From positions 2,215,218-2,279,217 of the forward strand of contig CM019068.1 in NCBI GenBank assembly GCA_009667805.1: a DNA stretch of 64,000 nucleotides, given 5' to 3'. Below the pieces are notes generated by a model. That model had not been told where the DNA came from and made no database searches. It saw nothing but the letters and a program-made list of their open reading frames with translations. Source of the DNA: Leptobrachium leishanense (lineage: Eukaryota > Chordata > Amphibia > Anura > Megophryidae). Positions 801 to 57,927 of the stretch are shown here, one piece after another; position 1 is the first letter of the stretch; every line of letters starts with the position of its first letter. The position numbers and the translations under genes were made by a program.

Positions 801-886
801 AGCAATGAGTAATGTAATGTGGTGCAATGAGTAATGTAATGTGACACAGTGAGTAATGTGATGCAATGAGTAATGTGATGCAAAGA
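801..886. repeat. Short tandem repeat, gcaatgagtaatgt unit
   Basis: About four to five diverged copies of a 17-22 bp unit (gcaatgagtaatgtaatgtg) sit directly before the first minisatellite block. It has no coding content. The stretch 674-800 before it shows nothing recognisable. Confidence 0.7.
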
Positions 887-982
887 TGTGAGCATGGGAA
901 TATATATATCCATGTGAGCTGGGGACAATATATATATCCATGTGAGCAGGGGCAAATATATATATCCATGTGAGCTGGGGAC
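886..982 (-). repeat. Minisatellite locus 1, first block
   Basis: Three units of about 30 bp (tatatatccatgtgagctgggg). Read on the minus strand the unit is ccccagctcacatggatata, the same core as the arrays at 21.9, 40.1, 47.4 and 56.8 kb. The array stops at 982 where a solo LTR is inserted and resumes at 1788. Confidence 0.85.
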
Positions 983-1787
983 TGTGACAGAACCGTTCTC
1001 TTCCGCCTGTCCTGACTCTCCAGATACCCCCTTGCCAAGATCAGCCCGGCCTCTGAGTTGCTTGGAGCTCAGTGCCTCGAGCAGCCTGATCTGCAGCTCC
1101 AGACCTGCTGGGTCTGAACCGCTTCCTTGGAGCCTCTTTTGATTTCCAGAAGGCTGCTCTGTGCCTTCTGAGGTTGAGTGTAGTGTGGCGTAGCTGAAGG
1201 AGACACCAGACGAGCTGTATGTTCCAACAGGATTCTCTCTCTTTATGGAAGATTTCACCGGATATTTATACAAAATACAGCAATGCACATTCAAACTTCC
1301 CACCCATCCCAACAGTTCTGATTGGTTGGTTCCAAGACTGCTGCGGGTTTCCTTCAGGTCCTCTTCAGTTATAATTTGCATACCAAATGGTGAACATGTA
1401 CCTAAAGTCTCTAATTACATTATGTCAGTTAGATATTTACAATAAACATTCTTTAGCCTTTAGCTCACACTACATTTACATAATCTATTGTTCTAACACA
1501 TCAGATTGAAGACAAACACTATCACAGACTTCTTGAGTCAAACAAGCAGCCAGATAAGGGGAAAAGCCCTGTTGCATAAATTACACAGTAGTAAAGCTTG
1601 TTTACTGGCTACACAAAAACACCTTTACCTACAGAAATATAAGTATATTTAAAACTAAAGCTACGCAATTTACACTACATTTAAACTAAAACCAGGCAAT
1701 GTAAAATATATTTAAAATCACACGATATAAATGAACATAAAGTCTCTTGGGGTTTGAAGCGTGGAGCGCTACGTCCGTTCCATGACA
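983..1787. mobile_element. Solo LTR inserted in the minisatellite
   Basis: The 805-bp block starts TGTGACAGAAC and ends GTTCCATGACA, so it has the TG...CA ends and short inverted termini of an LTR. It is flanked by gggac (978-982) and gcgac (1788-1792), a 4/5 match fitting a 5-bp target duplication. Removing it restores the minisatellite unit gctggggacaatatatat exactly. An AATAAA signal lies at about 1441. Inside there is only a non-conserved 201-aa minus-strand frame. The ends are Gypsy-like; the family assignment is inference. Confidence 0.8.
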
Positions 1788-1818
1788 GCGACAATATATA
1801 TATCCATGTGAAGGGGCA
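1788..1818 (-). repeat. Minisatellite locus 1, second block
   Basis: One unit (acaatatatatatccatgtg) continues the array of 886-982 after the solo LTR. It runs into the T-rich left edge of LINE-K. Confidence 0.8.
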
Positions 1819-2156
1819 TAATTTTTTTTTTTATAAAATATAACCTGGTTTCAATCATGTGTATCCAACTGATCACAATATGTGTCAATTTCTGGCAGCT
1901 CCTCCCTCCCCCTCCCAGTCACTTGCAGTGTAGCCCAAGGCTCAATACTCGGCCCCCTGCTATTCACAATATTCATAAATGATCTGCCCGTCATCTGCAA
2001 AGCCTCAACTGTACACATGTACGCAGACGACACCGTAAACTATACCAGCAAACCAAATCTCCCGCAGCTGGAGGCCGTGCTGCAAGAACAATTCACAGAG
2101 GTAGAAAAGTGGATCAAACACAACAAACTTTTTTTAAATACTGACAAAACTGTAAC

Positions 2157-2570
2157 ATAGTTACATAGTTACATAGTTACATAGGCTGAAAAAAAGACAT
2201 GCGTCCATCGGGTTCAGCCTCTCCCACATAACCTACTGCTATTGATCCAAAAGAAGGCAAAAAACCCAGTCTGAAATGCTCGCCAATATGCAACATACTG
2301 GGAAAAAATTCCTTCTTGCCCCCAGATGGCGTCAGATTTCTCCTTGGATCAAGAAGCTTTTACCCACATATTAAATATTATAACCCTTAATATTCTGTGT
2401 CTGCAGGAAGTCATCCAGTCGTTTTTTAAAAGTCTGTACAGACTCTGACCCAACCACCTCAACAGGCAGAGAATTCCACAGCTTTATTGTTCTCACCGTA
2501 AAATAACCCTTCCTATGCTTTAACCTAAATTTTCTTTCTTCCAGTCTAAATGGATGACCCCTTGTCCTAG
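2157..2570 (-). mobile_element. CR1 3' fragment inside LINE-K
   Basis: On the minus strand this encodes a CR1 ORF2 C-terminus (motif LWNSLPVEVV) followed by the 3' UTR with repeated acatagtt. LINE-K is interrupted after ctgtaac (2156) and resumes at taacgatgct (2571), giving a 4-bp taac duplication. At about 62195 another LINE-K copy reads ctgtaacgatgct without the insert. It is 5' truncated, typical of LINE insertion. Confidence 0.85.
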
Positions 2571-3313
2571 TAACGATGCTCTTTGGAACAAAACCTAAAC
2601 TACACAAATTGCAAAATCCCCATCTTTGTCAGGACAAAATCAAATGGCACGCTGACCACAGTCACTTCTCTCAAATATCTAGGTATGTGGTTGGACCCTA
2701 ATCTATCCTTTGGCCCCCACATCGAAAAACTCTCATCTAAACTCTACCCCAAACTAGGTGCCCTGTACAGAAACAAATCCTGCCTGAGCCCCGCGGTAAG
2801 AATGCAGATTGTGCAACAAATGCTTATGCCGGCTATTGAATACGGAGATGTAGTGTATGCAGCCGCCCCGCAAACACACCTTCAGAATCTTACTACATTG
2901 TATAACTCATTCTGCCGCTTTGTGCTATAGTGTAACTACATGACCCACAATTGTGACATGTTAAAAGAGCTGGAGTCTAAACGCACCCTTCACCTTTCCA
3001 ACCTGGTGTTTAAGAGCTTTTCTGGGAAGCTGCCACCCTACCTGAATAGACTGCTTCCCCCTGCAGTTCCCTCATCCTATAACCTCAGATCCAGGACCAG
3101 CACCTTACTTGCAATACCACAATACAAAAAGAAAGTGGCTCGATCCTCATTTTCCTACAGAGCACCGCAGTTATGGAATAACCTCCCAGACGACATCAAA
3201 TCTTCCCCCAGTCTTATGTCTCTCAAGAGCTCCTTACTAATAAACATCAAAACAGAATGCACCTGTAAACATGTAACATAATGACTATTTCCTACATATT
3301 TATTTTCTGTTAA

Positions 3314-4549
3314 CCCTTTCGCTGCTGAGGCTTTTCCCGCCTCTGTGCTGAGCTCATTTTTACTGGTTTTGCTCATCATGTTTAAACGTGTTTTGAAGGC
3401 TTATTTTAGTATATGACCCAGACATATTATATATCGTTCTTTCCGTCAGACTCGGCAGATTCATAATATGTCATTATTATATGTATACGTCATGACCTGT
3501 CTGTGTATTATAACAAAAAATGCAATAAAATATGAATTTTCAATAATTTACAACGTGTAAAGTGGTTTTTTTCCACATTGTAACATGCGAGCGTTTGCGG
3601 TTATATTTTGTATGGGGTGCGCTTGTTAAAAAACTTAGAGATGGGGTCTCGTTACATTTTTTTTGGGGAAAATTACGCGATTTTTAACAAACGCACCGCA
3701 TACAAAAATCGTTAGTGCAGCATCATTGTTCACATTATAATTGAAATGGGAACAATATTGCTGCATTAACAAACCAAAAAAAAGAAAAAAAACTTGTTTA
3801 TTTTTTTTTATTTTTTTTTTAAAATATTTTTTTATTTTTATTTTTAATTTTTATTTTTTTAAAAAAACTTTTTTCACAGTCGTGTTTGGTATCGTTGGAA
3901 CGGCCACGCTCTGGCCGATCCAACAGTACCAAACTTTAACCCCTAGCTGCCATGGATCGGGAGATAGGGGGTTCATTGGAACCCCCTATCTCCACCATTG
4001 GTGGCAGCTAGGGGTTAACTCCAGGACTGGCGTCATCGGGCTATACACGATGACGCCAGTCCTCAGGGGGAGTTCCCAGAGGCTTGGCCGACATCCAAGA
4101 TGTCGGCCAGCTCCGGGAAAGGATCACGAACCGGCGCTTTTCAGCGCCGATTCGTGATCCGGCCCCCATGGGGTTAATGCCAGGTACCATTTGGAAGGGC
4201 AGGCTGTGCCCTTCCAAATGGTGCCTGGGTTAACCTCCTGCACACCGCCGATCGGGAGGGAGAGAGGTCCGAATGACCTCCCCCCCTCCCTTTCAGGCGC
4301 CTCCTCCGCACATGTGGGGGGGGCGCCTGAATTAAGTGTCATTGCGCCCCCGCGATGACACCTAATTACTCCGGTGGCGGTTCTGGGTGCTGGGCTGACA
4401 TCGAGGATGTCAGCCTGCACCGGGGGGGAGCGATGAGGCCGGAACCCGGCCGAACGCTGGCCCCAAAGAGAGGACGCGCTCAGCGCGTCCACCGCATGGA
4501 ACGCTACTTGCGGTTGGACGCGCTGAGCACGTCCGTAGCAGTGAAGTGG
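3314..4549. mobile_element. TTAA-flanked MITE (piggyBac/Kolobok-like), chain of hairpins
   Basis: The element is 1236 bp, flanked by TTAA at 3310-3313 and 4550-4553. Imperfect inverted termini are CCCTTTCGCTGCTGAGG on the left and CCACTTCACTGCTACGG (reverse complement) on the right. LINE-K copies at about 62945 and 24015 carry the uninterrupted site ttctgttaatctg. It codes for nothing; a frame at 3741-4157 is poly-T translation. Nearly the whole right half consists of successive hairpins (3937-4018, 4023-4063, 4085-4109, 4121-4160, 4180-4228, 4337-4360, 4393-4413, 4471-4490). Three more lie at 3608-3705, 3715-3770 and 3884-3934. A TTAA target fits piggyBac and Kolobok; I cannot choose. Confidence 0.85.
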
Positions 4550-4711
4550 TTAATCTGTATATTTGTGGTTTTTTTTTTTAATATCTTGCATTGTATTACT
4601 TTGTATTTCTGTAACTGTAACACTTCAATGTACTTGAACCCAGGACATACTTGAAAACGAGAGAAATCTCAATGTATCCTTCCTGGTAAAATCCTTTGTA
4701 AATAAATAAAT

Positions 4712-5117
4712 ATATATATCCATGTGAGCTGGGGGCAAATATATATCCATGTGAGCTGGGGCAAATATATATATCCATGTGTGAGCTGGGGCCAATATAT
4801 ATCCATGTATGAGCTGGGGCCAATATCCATGTGTGAGCTAGGGCCAATAAATATCCATGTGTGAGCTGGGGGCCAATATATATCCATGTGTGAGCTGGGG
4901 GCTAATATATATCCATGTGACGTGTGAGCTAGGGCCAAATATATCCATGTGTGAGCTGGGGCCAAAATATATCCATGTGTGAGCTGGGGCCAAAATATAT
5001 CCATGTGTGAGCTGGGGCCAATATATGTCTACGTGTGAGCTGGGGGCAAATATATCCACGTGTGAATTGGGGGAAAATATATCCACGTGTGAGCTTGGGC
5101 AATATATATCTACGAGT
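4712..5117 (-). repeat. Minisatellite locus 1, third block
   Basis: About 14 units of 28-30 bp (atatatccatgtgtgagctggggcca) follow directly on the LINE-K tail. The array is cut at 5117 by a CR1 and resumes at 8322. No frame in it is a gene. Confidence 0.85.
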
Positions 5118-8321: not shown

Positions 8322-8660
8322 CTGGGGGCAAATATATCCACGTGTGAGCTGGGGCAAATATATTCACGTGTGAACTGGGGGCAAATATATCCACGTGTGA
8401 GCTGGGGCAAATATATCCACGTATGAACTGGGGGGCAAATATATCCACGAGTGAGCTTGGGCAATATATCCACGTGTGAGCTGGGGCAAATATATCCACG
8501 TATGAACTGGGGGGCAAATATATCCACGAGTGAGCTTGGGCAATATATCCACATGTGAGCTGGGGCAATATATATCCACGTGTGAGCTGGGACAATATAT
8601 CCATGTGTGAACTGGGGCAATATATCCAATGTGAGCTAGGGGGTAAATATATCCATCTTA
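8322..8660 (-). repeat. Minisatellite locus 1, last block
   Basis: About 13 units of 25-28 bp (aatatatccacgtgtgagctgggg) continue the array of 4712-5117 beyond the CR1. A two-unit pattern (ggggggcaaatatatccacg, then gagtgagcttgggcaatata) recurs at about 8428 and 8508, indicating a local duplication of some 80 bp. Confidence 0.85.
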
Positions 8661-21438: not shown

Positions 21439-21939
21439 TCAGTCTTCCTCTTCTCCGGTCTCTAAAACCTCCATTCCTGCTCCCATTTCCCTTCAGGTGA
21501 ATGAGCCACCATTACTTCCACCTCTCAGGCTCGTTGCCTCAGGGTCCTCCCAGATTCTGATCTATCCTTTATGCCGCACATTCAGTCTCTAACCAAAGCT
21601 TCCTACTTCAACCTTAAAAACATTGCACGCGTCCGTCCCTGTCTTAATCAGGACTCTGCTAAAATGCTCATGCAAGCTCTTATTATCTCCCGCCTCAACT
21701 ACTGTAACCTCCTTCTCTCTGGCCTTAAGAGGTCCCAGATTCTGCCTCTGCAGTCTGTAATGAACGCCTGTGCCAGGCTCATACACAGGGCCGGCCCAAG
21801 CCACTGTGCTGCCTGGAGCGAAGGAGGAAATGCTGCCCCCCCTGAAAAAAACACACAAACACGGGACATGTATGAGTGCATCAGAGCTCCACAGCAATAA
21901 ACCTCACAGCAATGTGTGGTGTGTATGAGCGTATCAGAG

Positions 21940-22500
21940 CCCCAGACCAGCTCACACATGGATGTATTGCCCCTAGACCAGCTCACACATGGATATATTG
22001 CCACCGCACCAGCTCACACATGGATATATGCCCCCAGACCAGCTCACGCATGGATATATTGCCACCAGACCAGCTCACACATGGATATATGCCCCCAGAC
22101 CAGCTCACACATGGATATATTGCCACCAGACCAGCTCACACATGGATATATGCCCCCAGACCAGCTCACACATTGATATATTGCCACCAGACCAGCTCAC
22201 ACATGGATATATTTCCCCAGATCAGCTCACGCATGGATATATTGCCCCAGACCAGCTCACGCATGGATATATTTCCCCAGATCAGCTCACGCATGGATAT
22301 ATTGCCCCAGACCAGCTCACGCATGGTTATATTTGCCTCCAGCTCATATGGGTATATTTGACCCCAGCTCATATGGGTATATTTGCCCCCCCAGTTCATA
22401 TGGGTATAATTGCCCCCAGTTCATATGGGTATATTTGCACCCCCAGTTCTTATGGGTATATTTGCCCCCAGTTCATATGGGTATATTTGCCCCCCAGCTC
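21940..22500 (+). repeat. Minisatellite locus 2 (in hAT-E)
   Basis: About 22 units. The first are 28-32 bp (cagctcacacatggatatat, alternating tgccaccagac and gcccccagac); later ones are about 24-27 bp (cagttcatatgggtatattt). A two-unit alternation makes a ~60-bp higher-order period at 21990-22200. The translations that look like long open frames arise from the lack of stops in the unit. Confidence 0.92.
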
Positions 22501-22516
22501 CTGTCTGCTCCCCCCG

Positions 22517-22710
22517 AGAAGATTCTGCTGGCGGCCATGTGTTTTTCCCTCCTACGTGCGGCCGCCAGCATGAATATCTGCCGCTCGCCTGGGGTTCTAT
22601 ACACCAGCCAGCTGCGAGATCGCTGCTGGCTGGTGTATAGAACCCCAGGCGAGCGGCAGATATTCATGCTGGCGGCCACACGTAGGAGGGAAAAACACGC
22701 GGCTGCCGGC
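22517..22710. repeat. Long palindrome next to minisatellite locus 2
   Basis: The arms (22517-22610 and about 22618-22710) are about 93 bp each and nearly perfect (agaagattctgc / gcagaatcttct outermost; gctggctggtgtatagaac in the centre). Single-stranded it would fold into one long hairpin. It starts 16 bases after the array ends. Confidence 0.92.
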
Positions 22711-23164
22711 AGAATCTTCTTGGGGGGGCGCTTGGATGCCACCCCGAACTGGATGCATGGGGGCGCCCCCCCCCCCCCCGTTGGCACATACCTGGTGCTG
22801 GCAGCTGGTGAGGAGTAAGCTGATCGAAAGTGCATATGGTGCACACAGCTAAAAAAAGTGCTGAGTGCACAGTCTAGGAATAGACCAATGATAAAGTGCT
22901 GTTATAAGTGTATACTAAAAAAAGTGCAAATGCAATCAAAAGTGCATATGGAGCAAATGACAGCTAAAACGTTGTGCACATTATAGAGCGTACTGCGGAA
23001 AGTGTGTTAAATATTCGTAAAAGCACATAAAAAGGACATAAAAAACAACACACACTTCTTGTGCAAAGTGCAAATGTAAAGTGCAATTGAAATAGCACAA
23101 AAATGGTAATAAAAAGATATATGGTATATGGTAATTAAAAGATATACTGCCTGATAACCCCAGG

Positions 23165-39886: not shown

Positions 39887-42800
39887 CAGTGGCGTCACTA
39901 GGGTTGGTGTCACCCGGTGCGGTAATTTATGGTGTCACCCCCCCCCCCCGAGTTTTACAGATTTTTTTAACTACTCTTACTCCTAAATCAGTACTCCCAT
40001 ATAACACTGAATGCTCATACACACAGTGCACATTACTGTGAGGTTTATTGCTGTGGAGCTCTCTCATATGCTCACACAACTTTTTGCCAACTGCCAGCAA
40101 GTACGTTGCCTGTTCGAAGGCAGTGAAAGCACACATGGATATATATTGCCCCCAGCAGCTCTGGATATATTGCCCCCAGCAGCTCTGGATATATATTGCC
40201 CCCAGCAGCTCACCCATGGATATATATTGCCCCCATATCACATATGGATATATTGCCCCAGTTCACAGTTATATATTGCCCCCAGCAGCTCACCCATGGA
40301 TATATATTGCCGCTCACATATGGATATATTGCGCCTCAGCTCACATATGGATATATTGCGCCTCAGCTCACACATGGATATATTGCCCCAGACCAGCTCA
40401 CACATGGATATTGCCCCAGCTCTCATGGATACTGCCCCCAGCACACATGGATATGCCTCAGCTCCTCTCATGGATATTGCCCCAGCTCCTCTCATGGATA
40501 CTGCCCCAGCTCCTCTCATGGATATACTGCCCCAGCTCCTCTCATGGATATACTGCCCCAGCTGCTCTCATGGATATACTGCCCCAGCTCCTCTCATGGA
40601 TATACTGCCCCAGCTGCTCTCATGGATATACTGCCCCAGCTCCTCTCATGGATATACTGCCCCAGCTCCTCTCATGGATATACTGCCCCAGCTGCTCTCA
40701 TGGATTTTGCCCAGCTCATGGATATGCCCCAGCACATGGATATACTGCCCCAGCTCATGGATATACTGCCCCAGCTCATGGATATACTGCCCCAGCACAT
40801 GGATATTGCCCCAGCTCATGGATATGCCCCAGCTCATGGATATTGCCCCAGCTCATGGATATGCCCCAGCACCTCATGGATATGACCCAGCACCTCATAG
40901 ATATGCCCCAGCAGCTCATGGATATGCCCCAGCAGCTCATGGATATGCCCCAGCAACTCATTGATTTGCCCCAGCAGCTCATGGATATGCCCCAGCACCT
41001 CATGGATATGCCCCAGCAGCTCATGGATATGCCCCAGCAGCTCATGGATACTGCCCCAGCAAATGGATATGTCCAAGCACCTCAAGGGTAATGAACCAGC
41101 ACCAGATGGATACTGCCCCAGCTCCTCATGGATATGCCCCAGCTCACCTCCACCGCGTATTCGCTCCCTGCGAGCGTCCGAAGCATGCAGCTTGTATACT
41201 GCATACTCATACTGCAGCTCATGGATATACTGCCCCAGCTCAAGGATATACTGCCCCAGCTGCTCTAATTGATAATGCCCCAGCTGCTGTCATGGATTTT
41301 GCCCCAGCTCCTCTCATGGATTTTGCCCCAGCTCATGGATATGCCCCAGCACATGGATATACTGCCCCAGCTCATGGATATACTGCCCCAGCTCATGGAT
41401 ACTGCCCCAATTCATGGATATTGCCCCAGCTCATGGATATTGCCCCAGCTCATGGATATGCCCCAGCAGCTCATGGATATGCCAAAGCACCTCATGGATT
41501 TGCCCCAGCAGCTCGTGGATATGCCCCAGAACCTCATGGATATGCCCCAGCAGCTCATGGATACTGCCCCTGCACCAGATGGATACTGCCCCAGCTCCTC
41601 ATGGATATGCCCCAGCAGATGGATACTGCCCCAGCACCTCATGGATACTGCCCCAGCACCTCATGGATACTGCCCCAGCACCTCATGGATATGACCCAGC
41701 ACCTCATGGATACTGCCCCAGCACCTCATGGATTTGCCCCAGCACCTCATGGATACTGCCCAAGCAGCTCATGGATATGCCCCAGCACCTCATGGATATG
41801 ACCCAGCACCTCATGGATTTGCCCCAGCACCTCATGGACTTGCCCCAGCACCTCATGGATACTGCCCCAGCACCAGATGGATACTGCCCCAGCACCAGAT
41901 GGATATGCCCCAGCAGATGGATACTGCCCCAGCAGCTCATGGTTACTGCTCCAGCACCTCATGGATATGCCCCAGCACCTCATGGATATGCCCCAGCACC
42001 TCATGGATATGCCCCAGCACCTCATGGATTTGCCCCAGCACCTCATGGATATGCCCCAGCACCTCATGGATTTGCCCAGCACCTCATGGATTTGCCCCAG
42101 CACCTCATGGATATGCCCCAGCACCTCATGGATTTGCCCCAGCACCTCATGGATTTGCCACAGCAGCTCATGGATATGCCCAAGCACCTCATGGATTTGC
42201 CCCAGCACCTCATGGATTTGCCCCAGCAGCTCATGGATATGCCCCAGCACCTCATGGATTTGCCCCAGCACCTCATGGATATGCCCCAGCAGCTCATGGA
42301 TATGCCCCAGCACCTCATGGATATGCCCCAGCACCTCATGGATACTGCCCCAGCACCTCATGGATTTGCCCCAGCACCTCATGTATATGCCCCAGCAGCT
42401 CATGGATTTGCCCCAGCACCTCATGGATATGCCCCAGCACCTCATGGATATGCCCTAGCACCTCATGGATTTGCCCCAGCAGCTCATGGATATGCCCCAG
42501 CACCTCATGGATTTGCCCCAGCTCCTCATGGATTTGCCCCAGCTCCTCATGGATTTGCCTCAGCACCTCATGGATTTGCCCCAGCAGCTCATGGATATGC
42601 CCCAGCACCTCATGGATTTGCCCCAGCACATCATGGATATGCCCCAGCACCTCATGGATTTGCCCCAGCACCTCATGGATATGCCCCAGCAGCTCATGGA
42701 TATGCCCCAGCACCTCATGGATTTGCCCCAGCACCTCATGGATATGCCCCAGCACCTCATGGATATGCCCAGCACCTCATGGATTTGCCCCAGCACCTCA

Positions 42801-43680
42801 TGGATATGCCCCAGCACCTCATGGATTTGCCCCAGCACCTCATGGATATGCCCCAGCACCTCATGGATACTGCCCCAGCACCTCATGGATATGCCCCAGC
42901 ACCTCATGGACATGCCCCAGCACCTCATGGATTTGCCCCAGCACCTCATGTATATGCCCCAGCAGCTCATGGATTTGCCCCAGCACCTCATGGATATGCC
43001 CCAGCACCTCATGGATATGCCCCAGCACCTCATGGATTTGCCCCAGCAACTCATGGATATGCCCCAGCACCTCATGGATTTGCCCCTCATGGATTTGCCC
43101 CAGCAGCTCATGGATATGCCCCAGCACCTCATAGATTTGCCCCAGCAGCTCATGGATATGCCCCAGCACCTCATGGATATGCCCCAGCAGCTCATGGATA
43201 TGCCCCAGCACCTCATGGATTTGCCCCAGCACCTCATGGATATGCCCCAGCACCTCATGGATCTGCCCCAGCACCTCATGGATTTGCCCCAGCACCTCAT
43301 GTATATGCCCCAGCAGCTCATGGACTTGCCCCAGCACCTCATGAATATGCCCCAGCACCTCATGGATATGCCCCAGCACCTCATGGATTTGCCCCAGCAG
43401 CTCATGGATATGCCCCAGCACCTCATGGATTTGCCCCAGCAGCTCATGGATATGCCCCAGCACCTCATGGATTTGCCCCAGCAGCTCATGAATATGCCCC
43501 AGCACCTCATGGATTTGCCCCAGCACCTCATGGATATGCCCCAGCACCTCATGGATTTGCCCCAGCACCTCATGGATTTGCCCCAGCACCTCATGGATAT
43601 GCCCCAGCACCTCATGGATATGCCCCAGCACCTCATGGATCTGCCCCAGCACCTCATGCCCCCACGTTACGACGCCAGTG
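39887..43680. mobile_element. hAT-F, non-autonomous, nearly all minisatellite
   Basis: Left terminus CAGTGGCGTCACTAGGG; right terminus (reverse complement) CACTGGCGTCGTAACG. Duplication atgtcgga (39879-39886) against atgtcggg (43681-43688), 7/8. Left arm 39887-40129 contains cctgttcgaaggcagtgaaa, like the B-family minisatellite unit. Right arm is only about 20 bp. Confidence 0.9.
40130..43660 (+). repeat. Minisatellite locus 3 (in hAT-F)
   Basis: 40130-40440 has 27-31-bp units, 40440-40850 has 18-23-bp units, and from about 40860 a uniform 21-bp unit (atggatatgccccagcacctc) repeats some 125-130 times. Units alternate between atggatATG and atggatTTG and between cagcac and cagcag. A short non-repeat island (41137-41215, ccgcgtattcgctccctgcg) interrupts. 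Since 21 is a multiple of three and the unit has no stop, all frames stay open (755, 468 and 424 aa plus, 365 aa minus). These are not genes. Confidence 0.95.
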
Positions 43681-46016
43681 ATGTCGGGAGAGGATCAAGC
43701 TTGGGAAAGACATCAGACACTTGGGTACCACGTGCTTGAGGCGACATATGATGACCTGCCACACATCCCGTTGGCACAACACTTTGCATAGGTCCTCCTC
43801 CTCATCTGTCTCTACCCCCACTATATGTCCTGCCATGTCATTGCCTAAAACTTCCACTGACAGGGATGATGCTACAGTAATGGGTGTACCAGGTCCTTCC
43901 TCACAATGTGACAGCATCCCATCAGCTGAAGATTTACGCAGTCAGATTAGGTTTCCCCAGCTGCTGCAGTGTAAGAAAAAATATAGTCCCAACCATCCTC
44001 AAGCACCGCGTCTAAATGCCAGCTTAACAAAATTACTTGCGTTACAGCTGCTACCTTTCCAGCTGGTGGACTCTGCTTCCTTCTGTGAATTTGCTGAATG
44101 TGCTGTACCACAGTGGCAGGTTCCAAAATGCCATTTCTTTTCATGGAAGGCCATTCCAGCACTATACCAGCACGTGGAAGACAATGTTATGGAGTCATTG
44201 GGAAAGTCAGTCAGCAGCAAGGTGCACATGACTTTAGACACGTGGTCCAGCAAGCATGGACAGGGCCGTTACATTTCCTTCATGGCACACTGGGTAACTC
44301 TGCTTGCAGCTGGGAGGTATCTAGGATGGGGCTCTGTGCTGGAGCTTGTTCATCCACCACGCCTCCAGAAAGCTGCTTGTATGAGGTATGTCTGCTCCAC
44401 CACCTCCTCCTCCTCCTCCTCTGTCTCTATCTCTGGCGAAGTGGCAGTTAAACCGATGCATGGCAGGTTGAGCTGGTTTGTTTAGGGGACAGGAGCCACA
44501 CCGGCCCAGAAATTTTGTCAGCTCTGCAGGGCCAGGTGCAGAGATGGTTAACACCACACCAGCTTCAGCTGGGAATGGTCGTCTGTGATAATGGCAGCAA
44601 CCTTCTCTCCGCCCTACGCCAGGGTAAGTTGACGCATGTACCATGCCTAGCACACGTCCTAAATCTGGTGGTACAGCATTTCCTAACCAGGTACCCAGGG
44701 CTGGCAGAGCTTCTCAGCCAGGCCAGAAAAGTCTGCAGCCACTTCAGACGGTCATTCCCATCAACCGTCTGATCTGTGACATGCCCACCAGGTGGAACTC
44801 AACATTAGCAATGCTGCAGCATCTGCACAAGCAACAGAGGGCCATCAACGAGTACCTGTGTGAGTATGGCACAAGGACAGGTTCAGGTCAACTTGCTTTA
44901 CCCCCCCCCCCCGCAGTGGCTGATGATCAAGGATGCATGCACTGTACTGTCGCCATTTGAGGAGGCAACGAGGATGGTGAGCAGGGACAGTGCATGCATC
45001 AGTGACACAATTCCTTTGGTGTTCCTGCTTGAGCACACTCTGCAGGGAATTATAGATGGGGCACTAGAGGCAGAGCAGCAGGAGGAAGAGGAGGCCTTCC
45101 CTAGCTCTCAAGGCCTCAGTCTTTATGCAGACAGCATTCCTGCAGGTCCTCAGATCAGACAGGAGGAGGATGAGGAGGAGGAATATATAAGTAGTGGGGG
45201 CATTGAAGGTGGGGATTCCTCAAGGGAGGGTTTTGTGTGCCCAGAAACCCAAGGACTAGTACGTGGCTGGGAGGAGGAAGTGCAGGATGGGGTCATCCTC
45301 ATTGCCCAGAAAGACTCGGAAGTTAATGCTGCCTCCAACCTATGCTGCATGGGCTCCCTTATCCTGCAAAGCCTGCTAAAGGACCCCAGGATTAGTGCTA
45401 TCAAGGAGAGGGATCATTACTGGTTGGCAAGCCTTCTTGATCCACGATACAAGGGTAAAGTTGCAGAGCTCGTCCTGCCCGCACAGAGGGAGGACAGGAT
45501 GAAACAACTTGAGTACGCTCTAAAGCGACACTTGTGTAACACCTTTCCAGGCACTGGTAGGTTACCAAGTGATGACACAGGTGCTTCTGAGGCTGCGGAT
45601 GATCAGAGGAAGAGTGGTGAAGGCCGGGCCGCTTGACTGATGCCTTTTTAAAAAAATTTAGTCCAAGACGCCCAAGGACGTCAAATGTAGGCACCCATTG
45701 CCAGCATCTTCACCATATGGTGCAGGACTACCTAGGGGCAAGGGCAGACCTGGATACCTTTACAGCAGATGATCCACTGGCTTACTGGGTGTTGAGATTG
45801 GATCACTGGCCAGAACTTAGCCAATATACTATGCAGCTACTAGGTTGCCCTTCATCCAGCGTGCTTTCTGAAAGGACGTTCAGTGCCGCTGGAGGTTTTG
45901 TCACAGAGAAAAGAGTGCATCTGTCCACCGACTCTGTAGACCGGCTGACATTTATAAAAATGAATCAGTCCTGGATCAGCAGCTATCAATCCCCTGATGC
46001 TGAAGTAACGGAATAG

Positions 46017-46816: not shown

Positions 46817-47439
46817 CAGAGTAATTAAAAGAGATTCGAAAAGTCACCGCACGTTCGGTGACTTTTCGTTCTCTTAAATTCGGTTTGTTTTGCCAATCCC
46901 ATTTCGGCGACCCTGCAGTGTATTCAGCAAGCACCACAGGGTCCCCGAATTGCAGGGAAAGGCCGCCGCAAAACCCGACGAAAACTAACTGCAAAACTCA
47001 GCGAATGCACGCCGAAAACATCTGGATTAACCCACCATAAACATCTGGATTAACCCACCGAAAACCACGAAAAAACCCGAGCAGGAGCCGATCACACGCA
47101 GCGAAGCCGCCGGAAAAAACCCGATACCGCAGACGAGTGAAGTGAATAAACTAGCAAAACCGTTTGCATGAATGATTGAAAAGTGAAACGCTGTTTGCAA
47201 AGAAACTACTGAGCGACAATGTCTGAAATTTACATATAAAATCCAATGAATGATAATAAAAAGGGCTGTTACAGAAAAATAAGTAAAGTTTAAGAAAAAA
47301 AATCTGACTTTTTTATAAAAAAAGAAAAATGCTTAAAATATCCTAAAAAATCTATAAATAAAGAGACTCTTTACTGCAGAATATTATAATTAACGCTTTA
47401 TTAGATACTAGTTGTAAAGCCTGCCCAGAGGGCAGTCTA

Positions 47440-50015
47440 TTGTGGATATACTGCCCCTGCTCATGTATACTGCCCCAGCTTGTGGATATTGCCCCAGCTC
47501 GTGGATATTGCCCCAGCTCGTGGATACTGCCCCAGCACGTGGATACTGCCCCAGCACGTGGATACTGCCCCAGCACGTGGATACTGCCCCAGAACGTGGA
47601 TACTGCCCCAGCACGTGGATACTGCCCCAGCACGTGGATACTGCCCCAGCACGTGGATATTGCCCCAGCACGTGGATACTGCCCCAGCACGTGGATATTG
47701 CCCCAGCACGTGGATATTGCCCCAGCACGTGGATACTGCCCCAGCACGGATACTGCCCCAGCACGTGGATATTGCCCCAGCACGTGGATATTGCCGCAGC
47801 ACGTGGATACTGCCCCAGCTCGTGGATACTGCCCCAGCTCGTGGATACTGCCCCAGCACGTGGATTGATACTGCCCCAGCACGTGGATATTGACCCAGCA
47901 CGTGGATACTGCCCCAGCACGTGGATACTGCCCCAGCACGTGGATACTGCCCCAGCACGTGGATACTGCCCCAGCACGTGGATATTGCCCCAGCACGTGG
48001 ATACTGCCCCAGCACGTGGATACTGCCCCAGCTCGTGGATACTGCCCCAGCACGTGGATTGATACTGCCCCAGCACGTGGATATTGCCCCAGCACGTGGA
48101 TACTGCCCCAGCACGTGGATACTGCCCCCAGCACGTGGATACTGCCCCCAGCTCGTGGATATTGGCCCAGCTCGTGGATACTGCCCCAGCACGTGGATAC
48201 TGCCCCAGCACGTGGATTGATACTGCCCCAGCACGTGGATTGATACTGCCCCAGCACGTGGATATTGCCCCAGCACGTGGATTGATACTGCCCCAGCACG
48301 TGGATATTGGCCCAGCACGTGGATACTGCCCCCAGCTCGTGGATACTGCCCCAGCACGTGGATTGATACTGCCCCAGCACGTGGATTGATACTGCCCCAG
48401 CACGTGGATATTGCCCCAGCACGTGGATTGATACTGCCCCAGCACGTGGATATTGACCCAGCACGTGGATACTGCCCCAGCACGTGGATATTGACCCAGC
48501 ACGTGGATACTGCCCCAGCTCGTGGATACTGCCCCAGCACGTGGATTGATACTGCCCCAGCACGTGGATATTGCCCCAGCACGTGGATACTGCCCCAGCA
48601 CGTGGATACTGCCCCCAGCACGTGGATACTGCCCCCAGCTCGTGGATATTGGCCCAGCTCGTGGATACTGCCCAGCACGTGGATACTGCCCCAGCACGTG
48701 GATTGATACTGCCCCAGCACGTGGATTGATTACTGCCCCAGCACGTGGATATTGGCCCAGCACGTGGATTGATACTGCCCCAGCACGTGGATTGATACTG
48801 CCCCAGCACGTGGATATTGCCCCAGCACGTGGATTGATACTGCCCCAGCACGTGGATATTGCCCCAGCACGTGGATACTGCCCCAGCACGTGGATACTGC
48901 CCCAGCTCGTGGATACTGCCCCAGCACGTGGATTGATACTGCCCCAGCACGTGGATATTGCCCCAGCACGTGGATACTGCCCCCAGCACGTGGATACTGC
49001 CCCCAGCTCGTGGATATTGGCCCAGCTCGTGGATACTGCCCCAGCACGTGGATACTGCCCCAGCACGTGGATTGATACTGCCCCAGCACGTGGATTGATA
49101 CTGCCCCAGCACGTGGATATTGCCCCAGCACGTGGATTGATACTGCCCCAGCACGTGGATATTGGCCCAGCACGTGGATTGATACTGCCCCAGCACGTGG
49201 ATATTGCCCCAGCACGTGGATTGATACTGCCCCAGCACGTGGATACTGCCCCAGCACGTGGATACTGCCCCAGCACGTGGATACTGCCCCCAGCACGTGG
49301 ATACTGCCCCCAGCTCGTGGATATTGGCCCAGCTCGTGGATACTGCCCCAGCACGTGGATACTGCCCCAGCACGTGGATTGATACTGCCCCAGCACGTGG
49401 ATTGATACTGCCCAGCACGTGGATATTGCCCCAGCACGTGGATTGATACTGCCCCAGCACGTGGATATTGGCCCAGCACGTGGATACTGCCCCAGCTCGT
49501 GGATACTGCCCCAGCACGTGGATTGATACTGCCCCAGCACGTGGATTGATACTGCCCCAGCACGTGGATATTGCCCCAGCACGTGGATTGATACTGCCCA
49601 GCACGTGGATATTGACCCAGCACGTGGATACTGCCCCAGCTCGTGGATATTGGCCCAGCTCGTGGATATTGCCCCAGCACGTGGATACTGCCCCAGCACG
49701 TGGATTGATACTGCCCCAGCACGTGGATATTGACCCAGCACGTGGATATCGCCCCCCCCCGCTCGTGATATGGCCCCCCCCCCCGCTCGTGGATATCGCC
49801 CCCCCCCCGCTCGTGGATATGGCCCCCCGCTCGTGGATATCGCCCCCCCCCGCTCGTGGATATCGCCCCCCCCGCTCGTGGATATCGCCCCCCCCGCTCG
49901 TGGATATCGCCCCCCCCGCTCGTGGATATCGCCCCCCCCGCTCGTGGATATCGCCCCCCCCCGCTCGTGGATATGGCCCCCGCTCGTGGATATGGCCCCC
50001 CCGCTCGTGGATATA
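47440..50015 (+). repeat. Minisatellite locus 4 (in the Helitron)
   Basis: About 130 units, mostly 19 bp (gatactgccccagcacgtg), with a frequent 23-bp variant (gattgatactg...). From 49745 it turns into C-rich 20-22-bp units (ggatatcgccccccccgctcgt). A block containing gcccccagctcgtggatatt recurs at about 48143, 48630, 49003 and 49308, showing duplications of 300-490 bp. The first units grade into the Helitron's own 3' end (tgtggatatactgcccctgc). Long frames (947 and 870 aa minus) are artefacts of a stop-free unit. Confidence 0.95.
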
Positions 50016-50019
50016 CTCA

Positions 50020-50220
50020 CCTACATCGGCCCTCCAGCGATGGCGGTCCCGCGTCCCGCTTCCAGCGTCCTCTCTCGCTCCGTTGGTCGCCGGGATGACG
50101 TCACGAAAGCCTTTGACCCCCGGGGTCAAAGGCTTTCGTGACGTCATTCCGGCGAACAACGGAGCGAGAGAGGACGCTGGAAGCGGGACCGCCATCGCTG
50201 GAGGAGCTAAGGGCCGATGT
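50020..50220. repeat. Palindrome 1 of the Helitron
   Basis: Arms of about 90 bp (ctcacctacatcggccctcc ... gatggcggtcccg) meet at gacccccggggtc (50117-50129). A close relative with the same centre lies at 50922-51130. Both end in inverted ggtgagtatgt sequences. Confidence 0.93.
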
Positions 50221-50259
50221 AGGTGAGTATGTGTCCCCCTACATTGGCCCGGAGCCTCA

Positions 50260-52160
50260 GCGGTGGCTGTCGTAGGCTGCTCGGCCGGCCTTCAGGCTTA
50301 GGCGAGCCCCCGGCTCGGCTGGGCCTGTAGGCCCAAGCCAAGCCGGGGGCTCGCCTGAGCCTGGAGGCCGGCCGAGCAGCCTGCGACAGCCGGAGGACAG
50401 TCACCGCTGGAGCTCAGGGCTAATGTAGGTGAGTATGTGCTCTCCACACCCACCCTGCTTACTCGGCCGGTATCCAAGCTTAGGCGAGCCCCCGGCTTGG
50501 GCCTAGAGGCCCAGCAGAGCCGGGGACTCGCCTGAGCATGGAGGCCGGTCGAGTTGCATGCTCGGCCGTCCTCCAGGCTCAGGTGAGTCCCTGGCTCGGC
50601 TGGGCCTCTAGGCCCAAGCCAAGCCGGGGGCTCGCCTGAGCCTGGATGCCGACCAAGCTTAGGCGAGCCCCCGGCTTGGCGTGGGCCTAGAGGCCAGCCG
50701 AGCCGGGGACTCGCCTGAGCCTGGAGGACGCCCGAGCATGCAACTCGACCGGCCTCCATGCTCAGGCGAGTCCCCGGCTCGGCAGGGCCTCTAGGCCCAA
50801 GCCAAGCCGGGGGCTCGCCTAAGCTTGAATACCGGCCGAGCAAGCAGGGTGTGTGTGTGTGTGTGTGTAGAGCACATACTCACCTACATCGGCCTCGAGT
50901 CCTCCACCGGTTCCACACATACTCACCGACATCGGCCCTTGGCTCCTCCAGCGATGGCGGTCCCGCTTGCAGCATCCTCCCTCCGTTGCTCGCCAGGATG
51001 ACGTCACGAAACCTTTGACCCCCGGGGTCAAAGGCTTTCGTGACGTCATTCCGGCGAGCAACGGAGAGAGGATGCTGCAAGCGGGACCGCCATCGCTGGA
51101 GGAGCAAGGGCCGATGTCGGTGAGTATGTGTTAGGCAACATCGGCCCTGAGCTCCAGCGGTGACCTCCTCCGGCCGAGCAGGCTGCTCGGCCGGCCTCTA
51201 CGCTTAGGCGAGTCCCCGGCTCGGCTGGGCCTGTAGGCCCAAGCCAAGCCGGGGGCTCGCCTAAGCCTAGAGGCCCGCCGAGCAGCCAGCGGCAGCTGGA
51301 GGAGGTCTCCGCTGGAGCTCAGGGCCGATTTTGGGGTGTGTTTGTTTGGGAACTTCGGCCCCGATCCTCCAGCGGTGACCTTCTCCGGCTGCCGCTGGCT
51401 GCTCGGCGGGCCTCTAGGCTTAGGCGAGTCCCCGGCTCGGCTGGGCCTGTAGGCCCAAACCGGCCGGGGGCTCGCCTAAGCCTAGAGGGCCGCCGAGCAG
51501 CCAGCGGCAGCCGGAGGAGGTCCTCCGCTGGAGCTCAGGGCCGATTTTGGGTGTTTGTTTGGGAACTTCGGCCCCGATCCTCCAGCGGTGACCTTCTCCG
51601 GCTGCCGCTGGCTGCTCGGCGGGCCTCTAGGCTTAGGCGAGTCCCCGGCTCGGCTGGGCCTGTAGGCCCAAACCGAGCCGGGGGCTCGCCTAAGCCTAGA
51701 GGGCCGCCGAGCAGCCAGCGGCAGCCGGAGGAGGTCTCCGCTGGAGCTCAGGGCCGATTTTGGGTGTTTGTTTGGGAACTTCGGCCCCGATCCTCCAGCG
51801 GTGACCTTCTCCGGCTGCTCGGCGGGCCTTTAGGCTTAGGCGAGTCCCCGGCTCGGCTGGGCCTGTAGGCCCAAACCGAGCCGGGGGCTCGCCTAAGCCT
51901 AGAGGGCCGCCGAGCAGCCAGCGGCAGCCGGAGGAGGTCTCCGCTGGAGCTCAGGGCCGATTTTGGGTGTTTGTTTGGGAACTTCGGCCCCGATCCTCCA
52001 GCGGTGACCACCTCCGGCTGCCGCTGGGTGCTCGGCGGGCCTCTAGGCTTAGGCGAGTCCCCGGCTCGGCTTGGGCCTGTAGGCCCAAACCGAGCCGGGG
52101 GCTCGCCTGAGCCTGGAGGCCCGCCGGCAGCCGGAGGACGGTCACCGCTGGAGGATCGGG
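50260..52160. repeat. Array of GC-rich palindromes in the Helitron
   Basis: Hairpins built on gcgagcccccggctcgg / ccgagccgggggctcgc recur about nine times. From 51130 to 52160 they form roughly five tandem units of about 210 bp (ccgattttgggtgtttgttt ... gccgccgagcagcc), each a palindrome. A TG run is at 50850-50868. No gene; many spurious frames. Confidence 0.92.
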
Positions 52161-52801
52161 GCATCTGGCCGTGTAAACACACGGGTAGCTGCGCGCGGCT
52201 CGTGCGTTTTTTTTTTTTTTTTTTCACGCGGCCGGCACGCGCAGCTACCTGTGTGTTCTAACGGCCGCTTTCAAATGTCCGTCGCGCATGCGCAGTAGGG
52301 TTTTGGCGACGGACGTTTTTAGGCTTATTCTATTATAGTATAGATTGAATTAAAACGAGAATATTTTTAACATTGAAACCTAGGAGATTCTCCTGAATAA
52401 ATCTGCCGAATTAAACCACCGAATGGCAGGACATTTCGGGAACCTTTCACTGCTGGTTTGTGTTCTCTGAATAGCCGAAGCATTGCTTCTCTATGGGGAT
52501 TTCACTGCCCTCGAACAGGCACCGAACAGGCACCGTATGTGCAGGCAATTTCCCAGGATTTGGCGAATTGCCTGCTCTCTGGATAGCTGAATGGTCAGGA
52601 AAGGTAACCGAACCCTGATTTTCAGCGATCGGTTACCTTTCTCAAGCAATTCGGATCTCTTTGAATTACCCTGTAAAAATCGAACATTCGAGTCCCATTG
52701 ACTTGCACTGATTTCGAATCGCGTTCGCGTTCAAACCCGAACTTTTGAAATTGTTCGAGTTCGAATGCGAACCGAACACGGGGGTGTTCGGCTCATCAGT
52801 A

Positions 52802-53850
52802 TTTGGCGGCAGTGAAATATGGTACCTGTTCGGCGGCAGTGAAATATGGTGCTGTTCGGCGGCAGTGAAATACGGTGCCTGTTCGGCGGCAGTGAAATCC
52901 CCCATAGAGAAGCAATGGTTAATCTATTCACATTGAACAGCAGAGAAATGTCAGTGAAATACGGTTCCTTTTCTGCGGCAGTGAAATACGGTGCTGTTCG
53001 GCGACAGTGAAATACGGTGCTGTTTGGCGGCAGTGAAATACGGTGCCTGTTTGGCAGCAGTGAAATACAGTGCTGTTTGGCGGCAGTGAAATATGGTGCT
53101 GTTCGGCGGCAGTGAAATACGGTGCCTGTTCAGTGGCAGTGAAATATGGAGCTGTTTGGCGGCAGTGAAATACGGTGCCTGTTCGACGGCAGTGAAATAC
53201 GGTGCCTGTTCGGTGGCATTGCAATACGGTGTCTGTTCGGTGGCAGTGAAATACAGTGCTGTTCGGCGGCAGTGAAATCCCCCATAGAGAAGCTATGGTT
53301 AATCTATTCACATTGAACAGCAGAGAAATGTCAGTGAAATACGGTTCCTTTTCTGCGGCAGTGTAATAAGGTGCTGTTCGGCGGCAGTGAAATATGGTGC
53401 CTGTTCGGCGGCAGTGAAATAGGGTGCCTGTTCGGCGGCAGTGAAATACGGTGCTATTTGGCGGCAGTGAAATACGGTGCTGTTTGGCGGCAGTGAAATA
53501 TGGTGCCTATTCGGCGGCAGTAAAATACGGTGCTGTTCAGCGGCAGTGAAATACGGTGCTATTTGGCTGCAGTGAAATATGGTGCCTGTTCGGCGGCAGT
53601 GAAATACGGTGCCTGTTCGGCGGCAGTGAAATACGGTGCTATTTGGTGGCAGTGAAATACGGTGCTGTTTGGCAGCAGTGAAATATGGTGCCTATTCGGC
53701 GGCAGTAAAATACGGTACTGTTCAGCGGCAGTGAAATATGGTGCCTGTTCGGCGGCAGTGAAATACAGTGCTGTTTGGTGGCAGTGAAATACGGTGCCTG
53801 TTCGGCGGCAGTGAAATACGGTGCCTGTTCGGCGGCAGTGAAATCCCCCA
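52802..53850 (+). repeat. 27-bp minisatellite of B3
   Basis: About 33 copies of ggcggcagtgaaatacggtg-cctgttc (26-27 bp). A ~75-bp block (cccccatagagaagcaatgg ... tcagtgaaatac) recurs at 52908, 53278 and 53845, and at 37600 left of hAT-G, giving a higher-order period of roughly 370-570 bp. hAT-G is inserted within this array. Confidence 0.93.
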
Positions 53851-55199: not shown

Positions 55200-56640
55200 C
55201 AGAAGAAGACAAAGAGGTTGATTTTGGGAGCGCGGAGGCTGCGTCTGCCCATTAACGCTTACTAACAGGCGTGCCGAGACTTCAGTCAAAAGCAATACAT
55301 TTAAACTTAATGAAATCTCAATTTGCCCACGGAGGATTCTCTCTGCCTGACGTTCTCCCACGCTGGCGATAAGCGAGGTGCGCGGCCTCCCCATGTCATG
55401 AATGTGTCTGCGAGCGGCGAGCCGAGCCGCTGCTATTGTGCTGGAGACGGCATTACAGTCTTTAAGTTCCATCACACTTTGCCCCGAGCCAAACGGGTTC
55501 TGATCGCTGGCTCGCCTCCCTCTCTCATTATCATTCCCTCATTACCGATTCATTTTAACTGCACTTAACTGATAGTACGCGGAATAATAATGAAAAAACC
55601 CCTCGCGTGCGGCAAGATTTCATTTCACCATTTCCCTCCCAGAGGAAGCTGTGGAGCCGCCGCTTCCAGGAAGCCGTGCACGTCCACCCCGGTACCAGCC
55701 GGGTTAAGAGTAAACCCCTCGGGGACTTTCTGTATTTTTCACCCTGCACTTCCACAAATCGAAAAAATGTCCCCTCAGATAAACAAAACAAAAAAATTAG
55801 CGCCGCTCCTTCTCCCCCACCGCTGCGGCAGCCGCTCCCTCCCCCCACCGCCGCGGCAGCCGCTCCCTCCCCCCACCGCCGCGGCAGCCGCTCACGCTCG
55901 GCCAGGAAACTTTCTTGTGATTAAATGTGCCGGCAATTTGCGATGTTTTAAATGAGTTTATGAATTTGCATTTCAGATGTCCCTGAGACACGCGCTGTGA
56001 AACGCGCAGGACACGCCACGCTTTTTGAAGTTGATTAGCGTTTGATCCCAATCGGTCCTACCTGGGCAACTTCAAAGTTTTTTCCGTCGCGGCAGAAAAA
56101 GACCAATCGCACCTTGCAGCGCTGGGCAAGGGACTTAAAAGTGGTTTTGCTCATTATCGTATGCAAAGGAAACCTATATTTTAATATTCGTTTAATATGC
56201 TTCGTTAGCGTTTAATGACGGGGCTCGGCGAACGCTGGGAGCTGGATTCCAACGTTACACACATTTACAATATTTCATGCATTTCTCTCGCCATTTCCTC
56301 TCTCCGCCTTTGAAGCTCGCGCCTCTCGTCATCTGCCCGGACCGGCTTCGCGAGAATCTGATGTTTCGGGTTAGGAATTTCCCGGCCTCCTTGGGTGAGC
56401 GGCTTCTCAGCCTCTATTCACCGGACAAACCCATACATCTGCTAAATGAGCCTCCCAGAGGTCCCTGTACATTGAATCCAAGGAGGCCGATCATAAAGGC
56501 TGTGGCCGCGTGTCGCGGCCTCCAGGAGAATTTATACCTACTGTTATAGAACATAAATTAGTGAGCTGCGCCACACGGCATCAGGTGGAGCCGACGTTTC
56601 AGCCATGAATAAAAAAGCTTTACATGAGGAACTCCGCTCC
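55200..56640. other. Repeat-free block, candidate conserved non-coding element
   Basis: This is the longest stretch without repeats or transposon marks. It is rich in homeodomain-type TAAT/ATTA cores (tttaatgacgg, cattatcg, gtttaatatg), has an ATGCAAAG octamer-like site (about 56160) and a ccgccgcggcagccgctc triplet repeat (55803-55900). No open frame is convincing. The base composition and lack of decay resemble a vertebrate developmental enhancer region; that is inference only. Confidence 0.35.
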
Positions 56641-56814
56641 CTCCTTGAAAGACTGCAGTGGATATATATTAGGGATGCACCGATACCACTTTTTTAAGAC
56701 CGAGTACGAGTACCGATACTTTTGTTCAAGTACTCACCGATACCGAGTACCGATACTTTTATCTTATGTCATGTGACCGCTTTCCAATAAGAACAGACCT
56801 CCTATAAAGCCCCC

Positions 56815-57445
56815 AGGTCTCATGGATTTGCCCTCCAGCTCATGGATAATGCCTCCAGCTCATGGATATGCCCTCCAGCTCATGGATACTGCCCCCAGCT
56901 CATGGATTCTGCCCCCAGCTCATGGATACTGCCCCCCAGCTCATGGATTTGCCCCCCAGCTCATGGATATGCCCCCAGCTCATGGATATGCCCCCAGCTC
57001 ATGGATAATCCCAGCTCATGGATATTGCCCCAGCTCATGGATAATGCCCCCAGCTCATGGATAATGCCCCCAGCTCATGGATAATGCCCCCAGTTCATGG
57101 ATATGCCCCCAGCTCATGGAAATGCCCCAGCTCATGGATATGCCCCCAGCTCATGGAAATGCCCCAGCTCATGGATATGCCCCAGCTCATGGATATGCCC
57201 CAGCTCATGGATTTGCCCCCCAGCTCATGGAAATGCCACAGCACATGGAAATGCCCCAGCACATGGAAATGCCCCAGCTCATGGAAATGCCACAGCTCAT
57301 GGATATGTCCCAGCTCATGGATTTGCCCCCCAGCTCATGGAAATGCCACAGCACATGGAAATGCCCCAGCACATGGAAATGCCACAGCTCATGGAAATGC
57401 CCCAGCTCATGGAAATGCCCCCCAGCTCATGGATAATGCCCCCCC
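56815..57445 (+). repeat. Minisatellite locus 5 (in hAT-H)
   Basis: About 32 units of 18-21 bp (agctcatggatatgccccc). In the second half the unit changes to cagctcatggaaatgcc. A ~110-bp block (gatttgccccccagctcatg, then cacatggaaatgcc) is repeated at 57211 and 57319. Confidence 0.94.
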
Positions 57446-57467
57446 AGCTCACCTGGAGCTCTCCGCT

Positions 57468-57927
57468 CATACTTACCTTCCTTTAGCGACGCCGGGAAAG
57501 TCTTTGCGCGCGCGCTCCTTGGAAGGTCCCCAGCCGCGACCACGTGGGACCATGTGATCGCTGCTGGGGTCCTTTCAACAAGCGCACGCGCGGAAACTTT
57601 CCCGGCGTCGCTAAAGGAAGGTAAGTATGAGCGGAGACCAGCTGCAGGGCCTGTCCGAATGCTCTATCTGCATTCGGACAGGCCCTGCAGCTGCTCACTT
57701 TGTTTATACTTACCTTCCTTTAGCGACACCGGGAAAGTTTCTGCGCGTGCGCTCGTTGGAAGGACCCCAGCCGCGATCACATGGTCCCACGTGGTCGCGG
57801 CCGGGGACCTTCCAAGGAGCGCGCGCGCGCGAAGACTTTCCCGGCGTCGCTAAAGGAAGGTAAGTATAAACAAAGTGCAGTGAGCAGCTGCAGGGCCTGT
57901 CCGAATGCCGATAGAGCATTCGGACAG
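57468..57927. repeat. Two adjacent long palindromes in hAT-H
   Basis: Palindrome one (57468-57629) and two (about 57652-57927) share the arm ccttcctttagcgac.ccgggaaag. Each ends in catacttacc ... ggtaagtatg or tatacttacc ... ggtaagtata. The second has outer extensions (gcagctgcagggcctgtccg and its inverse), reaching arms of about 130 bp. Start is about 25 bases after the minisatellite. Confidence 0.93.

Follow-up and report, generated by a model that had tools for sequence, protein, structure and literature searches.

A minisatellite and the palindrome beside it probably form one homologous cassette that is carried by several unrelated families of DNA transposons, having been passed between families by insertion or repair joining with loss of the inner ends, and then amplified. 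The analysed sequence is a 64,000-nucleotide stretch of the genome of the frog Leptobrachium leishanense (C6:2215218-2279217; hereafter, the window), and the core repeat was searched for throughout the genome assembly (3.54 Gb, 4,632 contigs). In the window, GCCCCAGCTC with at most one mismatch has 260 matches, compared to 4.87 expected from shuffled sequences. Across the genome, exact matches to the pattern GGATATNNNGCCCCAGCTC number 93,990 (47,555 on the plus and 46,435 on the minus strand), and the same pattern read backwards has 0 exact matches; the core-repeat phenomenon extends far beyond the window. The core arrays that a first-pass annotation of the window had noted at 0.9-8.7 (inverted), 21.9, 40.1, 47.4 and 56.8 kb, and the long palindromes that it had noted at 22.5, 50.0 and 57.5 kb, were all found at these places.

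Hosts of the array and the associated palindromes

Arrays with at least 10 core matches were tabulated as rows (n = 33), 7 from the window and 26 from 24 loci obtained from the first 100 listed core places (C1:0.05-5.08 Mb; 10 kb fetched at each), the sample covering the first 5.1 Mb of one contig in addition to the window. Three arrays with four core matches each (L010 plus strand, L018 plus strand and window 886-982) were excluded, and all rows were oriented as GGATAT...GCCCCAGCTC. Because loci within one family share ancestry, the tallies of palindrome side, splice donors, CpG islands and motif density given below count copies rather than events.

We scanned for hAT-like ends flanked by 8-bp target-site duplications (TSDs), relying for all host calls on consensus features that we take to be standard for hAT elements and Helitrons. 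Among 5,189 terminus pairs, for which 0.08 exact TSDs are expected by chance, 12 distinct array-bearing elements with exact 8-bp TSDs were identified, belonging to six hAT families: E (L010, L014, L022 and L023), F (L012 and L028), C (L013), J (L016), A (L019 and L024) and H (L031 and the window). A further 16 exact cases were found in J (see below). The E element of the window (39887-43680) and L021 have TSDs with one mismatch; a one-mismatch call in L025, with ends unlike those of any host, was treated as chance and left uncounted. The short terminal inverted repeats of the hAT hosts begin with C/TAGNG and differ at 0-6 of 14 positions. The TSD of H in the window, ATATATAT, is of low complexity, and that of the same family in L031 is AAATTAAC.

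The seventh host is a Helitron, with a 5' TC and a 3' hairpin followed by CTAG, in agreement with CTRR; other copies end with CTTG (by eye), a departure from CTRR. It is inserted between A and T without a TSD, and its empty site is seen in L012, which aligns through the insertion point, with spanning matches in 12 other fetched loci. The repeat is found in six hAT families and a Helitron rather than in a single transposon family. The first-pass annotation had counted five unrelated hosts in the window, four of them with defined ends. The termini of E, F, H and the Helitron indeed differ, and E, H and the Helitron have defined ends; for F the window holds the left terminus only, with neither a right terminus nor a TSD found there, the element being complete with exact TSDs in L012 and L028, and the inverted array at 0.9-8.7 kb has no identified host. 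Descent of all hosts from one element, with terminal repeats that diverged or were swapped and zero transfer, is very unlikely: the ends of J and of a candidate family K (see below) both start with TAGGGCTG and those of E and A with CAGTGGCGT, but beyond these starts the ends of E, F, C, J and H are unlike one another, and the mobilisation signature of the Helitron is wholly different.

We defined a strong palindrome as a foldback with a self-alignment score of at least 100 located no more than 450 bp from the array. On the right side of the array, a strong palindrome is present in 21 of the 33 rows, and on the left side in 1 of 33, compared to 3.7% of 300 control windows. Comparison of the right flanks at more than 60 bits yields three groups, with 6 rows remaining ungrouped: P1 comprises hosts E, J and A and locus L011; P2 comprises hAT H twice, four Helitron copies and L026; and P3 comprises the F element of the window, L012, L030 and L009. 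At more than 100 bits, the links between E and J and between H and the Helitrons persist. The palindromes had been described in the first-pass annotation as unrelated in sequence, which the groups contradict. Since these groups cross hosts, and one of them joins hAT elements and Helitrons, array and palindrome are best read as one inherited cassette; the shared cassette proposed in the annotation thus gains support from the one-sided position of the palindromes, the spread over several hAT families and a Helitron, and the palindrome groups that cross hosts.

Group P2 also bears on Helitron capture, which the annotation had suggested as one route. That a Helitron captured the cassette and, as the main vector, delivered it to hAT elements is improbable in our assessment. 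P2 is common to hAT H and four Helitron copies, and the array lies just inside the Helitron 3' end, but all four Helitron loci carry P2, and the window Helitron enters P1 solely through a match that is apparently in array sequence. Moreover, the palindrome of H (L031) has hairpins at both flanks and that of the Helitron in L029 at one (by eye), which fits transfer from H to the Helitron better, and J shows a hAT end instead. The presence of P2 in Helitrons and in a hAT agrees with the suggested capture, and is by itself compatible with transfer in either direction.

The arrays were compared through their 10-mer profiles. Similarity was 0.545 within the same host (80 pairs), 0.395 between different hosts sharing a palindrome group (48 pairs) and 0.301 between palindrome groups (152 pairs), all three values being given without a significance test. 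Nearest neighbours across hosts included the Helitron of L020 and hAT H, and host A (L024) and the Helitron of L029, the latter pair across palindrome groups. That the arrays arose separately within the individual hosts from a short motif common to them, with the palindrome promoting adjacent tandem duplication, is unlikely. Unit lengths do vary with host, and units are longer in the left than in the right third of the arrays (23.4 vs. 22.3 bp; 17 of 28 arrays, p = 0.027), which implies some polarity; furthermore, in host C (L013) two minisatellites stand side by side with little in common beyond TTGCCCCCAG (by eye), so that units appear replaceable around a small core. However, the palindromes are related between hosts, and the similarity of adjacent units peaks in the middle of the array rather than beside the palindrome (0.851, 0.880 and 0.855 in successive thirds from left to right; 28 arrays). 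Growth of the array driven by the palindrome was rejected as a separate proposal, given that unit similarity shows no trend with proximity to the palindrome, despite the slightly greater unit length on the left. The L013 element itself (4060-5530, minus strand) is a hAT with the TSD GTCTAGAT, in which a minisatellite of about 30 bp, CTTGCCCCCAGAACTAATTACAGCCAGACA, runs straight into the GGATAT array.

Family J, the mosaic of E and the mode of transfer

The genome contains 1,678 exact left ends of J, up to 1,291 of which are followed by TGGATA at 108-138 bp (some places being counted twice). We fetched 20 further J copies, taken in listing order with L016 passed over, within the first 78.3 Mb of the contig used for the array sample. 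Both ends and a TSD were identified in 18 of the 20 (16 exact, 2 with one mismatch); these 18 copies are 445-1517 bp long and contain 3-53 core matches, tandem copy number varying among copies as in minisatellites borne by transposable elements (TEs). Of the remaining two, L046 has an array that extends past the fetched piece, and L033 ends after the first unit, at another repeat. Downstream of the J copy in L033, positions 1-220 contain the terminus of a distinct H element, together with the beginning of that element's palindrome (by eye). Such repeats are hard to assemble, but an assembly artefact is next to inconceivable when 18 of 20 copies have both ends and matching TSDs at different places. 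The cassette occupies a fixed place in most J copies, and the simplest reading is that J acquired it once and then multiplied while array length kept changing.

Two of the J copies, L038 and L045, contain after the palindrome a second hAT-like end (TAGGGCTGCGGAAATTAA in reverse), which we call K-type, followed by the right end of J; in an alignment of 19 J copies, L049 retains the neighbourhood beyond this end, the end itself being absent. Locus L011 bears a near-identical K-type end, and its palindrome is the nearest to that of J (70% identity vs. 58-68% for others). Genome-wide, we identified 156 exact junctions of palindrome and K-type end and 174 junctions of K-type end and J right end; on contig C1, 15 of the 21 places with the former are also among the latter. 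These junctions suggest that J received a nested insertion of an element of a family K (TAGGGCTGCGGAAATTAACGATTAAT) that carried the cassette and whose ends were subsequently lost, the K-type end being the relic of the nested element. More generally, a carrier element would insert into, or be repair-joined to, an element of another family, the inner element's ends would then be lost, and the composite would move by its outer ends and reach hundreds or thousands of copies, with array length continuing to change during amplification. The same route may have supplied the other hosts, for which, as for J, we infer rather than observe the direction of each transfer.

The left part of E is mosaic, its pieces recurring elsewhere. 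One piece is common to F, L009 and L023, and another belongs to a dispersed repeat (GTGCCTGTTCGA.GGCAGTGAAATCCCCAT). In the listed cassette-bearing E copies, this repeat stops at GGCAGTGAAA, where the array starts; in the E copy of L015, the dispersed repeat continues where the array begins in other E copies. Judged from these junctions, the mosaic would fit template switching or nesting. Template switching, the other route suggested in the annotation, is thus consistent with E, and J points instead to nested insertion of a hAT element (K) with loss of its ends. Whether other copies of the hosts have the core, a question the annotation had also raised, has a mixed answer: 19 of the 20 sampled J copies contain core matches, and of the 4,894 exact left ends of E in the genome, no more than 2,668 are followed by TGGATA at the usual spacing. 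Several further repeats adjoin this subject. At 52805-53844 in the window, a 26-bp minisatellite (GGCGGCAGTGAAATACGGTGCTGTTC) is built of the dispersed repeat to which the array of E is joined. The block CCACAGCAATAAAACTCACAG, which precedes the array in E and F, also occurs at L009 7366-7640 and L023 487-636, where it forms short direct and inverted repeats at a distance from the GGATAT array within that locus.

A number of observations weigh against the transfer of a single cassette. At more than 100 bits, host A drops from P1 and P3 retains only the F element of the window and L030; our judgement that the account is probably correct already takes in this failure of the looser links. Gapped alignments, made without a random baseline, give palindromes of different hosts within a group an identity of about 57-76%, so that any shared ancestry would be old, and the link between P1 and P3 consists of one 50-bit match and motifs seen by eye. 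Among the loci, L009, L011, L026 and L032 gave no TSD-defined element in the end scan, L030 has a hAT-like right end only (by eye), and L018, L025 and L027 have E-type ends without a TSD call; the single cassette-free copy of host A that was inspected (L027) has no matching TSD (by eye). In J, the array of L038 joins the element at a different point from most copies, and a second uptake is therefore possible. Knowledge of K as a family of its own is weak: across the window and L009-L052, its end turned up in L038, L045 and L011 alone, and neither a left end of K at the J array nor a TSD from an inner K insertion was identified. Finally, no relic of an inner element was identified in E, A, F, C, H or the Helitron.

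Palindromes as candidate promoters

In 22 of the 33 rows, the 220 bp that follow the array resemble a CpG island, compared to 1.9% of 1,000 random windows. Two sequences that we take to be promoter motifs were also searched for: CACGTG occurs beyond the array in 17 of 33 rows (2.3% of random windows), and TCTCGCGAGA is present in 5 of 33. With a splice-site weight matrix that we assume to be adequate, donors scoring at least 8 at the junction, reading from the palindrome into the G-rich array strand, were identified in 22 of 33 rows, compared to 5 of 33 on the other strand and 2.4% of random windows, such that each of the two features looked for in a bidirectional promoter, CpG richness and outward donors, is present in 22 of the 33 rows.

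The longest string present in all seven P2 flanks, CATACTTACCT, is the complement of a full 5' splice site and spans hAT and Helitron hosts. Of the 11 occurrences of AGGTRAGT on both strands of the window, 9 fall within the stretches that carry palindromes, 5 in the Helitron and 4 in H. Counted across the window together with the 24 loci, AGGTRAGY has a 21.5-fold higher density on the side of the palindrome, and its count of 29 is reached by 0 of 200 permuted motifs (maximum 15). The P2 donors lie apart from the array unit; at P1 and P3 junctions, the donor may partly derive from the unit, because the match overlaps it (CAGCTCAC). Selection on the splice donor of J was tried and rejected (0.934 for donor columns vs. 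0.932 for background in 19 aligned copies), and since the J donor columns do not exceed background in conservation, what speaks for the donors is their occurrence in several groups, not their preservation inside one family.

We consider it possible, albeit doubtful, that the palindrome is a mobile bidirectional CpG-island promoter, a proposal that draws on sequence features. The two arms would be first exons ending in strong outward 5' splice sites, the G-rich array strand would begin the intron, and unrelated transposons would have acquired the unit repeatedly, perhaps because an open and transcribed promoter aids movement or escape from silencing. If the palindromes are promoters, thousands of genome sites could carry a start site and splice donors.

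Other features of the window and relation to known systems

The features of the window are listed in Table 1. Host E inserted into a hAT transposase gene (39.2-46.0 kb), where it interrupts the part encoding the BED finger, and joining the E flanks restores the BED-finger frame; among four open reading frame (ORF) pieces of this gene searched against Pfam, 3 gave no family. The palindrome of this E copy is reduced to a piece at about 41140-41200, between the two array blocks. The three inverted array pieces at 886-8655 are adjacent, and by this adjacency they are probably a single array divided by two retroelement insertions; ORFs of the long interspersed element (LINE) type lie between them at 5463-8007. 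No host was found for them in the scan for hAT-like ends and TSDs, and no palindrome with a score of at least 100 was found beside 4712-5112 or 8322-8655, the smallest piece (886-982) being outside that test.

Table 1. Positions of arrays, palindromes, host elements and associated features in the window
Feature	Position	Strand	Basis or remark
Array piece, 28-bp unit	886..982	-	Tandem-repeat detection; host without definition
Array piece, unit ~28 bp	4712..5112	-	Tandem-repeat detection
Array piece, unit ~26 bp	8322..8655	-	No strong palindrome on either side
Host F, left terminus CAGGGCCGGCCCAAG	21786..22830	+	End approximate
Array in F, units mostly 25-31 bp	21939..22500	+	Tandem-repeat detection
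Palindrome in F, arms 108 nt, group P3	22510..22727	.	Foldback and flank comparison
Host E, non-autonomous hAT (CAGTGGCGTCACTAGGG)	39887..43680	+	TSD ATGTCGGA/ATGTCGGG (one mismatch)
Array in E, two blocks	40130..43660	+	Tandem-repeat detection
hAT transposase C-terminal dimerisation region	45633..46016	+	PF05699, E=4.4e-12; target gene of E
Helitron	47408..52344	-	5' TC at 52344; 3' hairpin and CTAG at 47408
Array adjoining Helitron 3' end	47440..50014	+	
Helitron palindrome	50015..50228	.	By eye; outward splice-donor matches at edges 50015 and 50221
Additional inverted and tandem repeats, Helitron interior	50265..52132	.	
Host H, non-autonomous hAT (TAGGGATGCACCGATAC)	56670..58081	+	TSD ATATATAT; end and TSD scan
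Array in H, mainly 18-20-bp units	56806..57450	+	Tandem-repeat detection
H palindromes, group P2	57460..57870	.	Arms 57460-57547/57550-57637 and 57506-57628/57706-57828
Splice-donor matches in H palindromes	57471, 57619, 57708, 57858		

Elsewhere in the window, a 39-bp minisatellite occupies 58705-61811 and 63114-63737 (about 80 and 16 copies), with LINE-like ORF pieces between the two arrays. The repeat unit is similar to the 3' end of a LINE fragment near 3.25 kb (3255-3300; GAATGCACCTGTAAACATGTAACA), and this minisatellite may therefore have grown from a LINE tail. An 826-codon ORF at 25948-28428 contains a 162-bp tandem repeat in about four copies (27246-27872). Searches of the window gave 0 Rfam families at the gathering score and 0 tRNA genes.

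Tandem repeats borne by TEs are well known, frogs included (PMC9659126, PMC12628747, PMC10794172). The Xstir tandem repeats on the Xmix miniature inverted-repeat transposable element (MITE) of Xenopus (Hikosaka and Kawahara 2004, as cited in PMC9659126 and PMC12628747) resemble the present case in lying inside a frog non-autonomous DNA transposon that spread them; however, those repeats are tied, in the cited accounts, to one MITE, whereas array and palindrome here occur in six hAT families and a Helitron. Similarly, the satellite-bearing MITE miDNA4 of Xenopus tropicalis (Scalvenzi and Pollet, as cited in PMC9659126 and PMC12628747) belongs to one Tc1/mariner family, and the passages concerned do not mention a palindrome cassette, unlike the several families and the palindrome described here. 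One array type has been found across different Helitrons (PMC12628747), which likewise places a single array in more than one transposon, but the hosts named in that account are Helitrons, whereas those identified here span two superfamilies. The minisatellite expansion from SINE/tRNA-V, a short interspersed element, in frog subtelomeres, as outlined in PMC10794172, is also a TE-derived minisatellite in frogs; the expansion reported there is subtelomeric, whereas the exact core studied here has a density of about 20 per Mb in the first 5.08 Mb of C1 (which may not be subtelomere), compared to a genome mean of about 26.5 per Mb. In the literature searched, mostly by titles and abstract openings, no published description of this cassette was found, and an array-plus-palindrome cassette distributed across superfamilies looks like a new form of TE-borne minisatellite.

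If this account is correct, a part of a non-autonomous transposon can switch vehicles across families and even superfamilies, with each vehicle amplifying it, and minisatellites and regulatory DNA would spread through large genomes by a two-level process. Family J, with its possible K relic, offers a testable record of one such transfer step.

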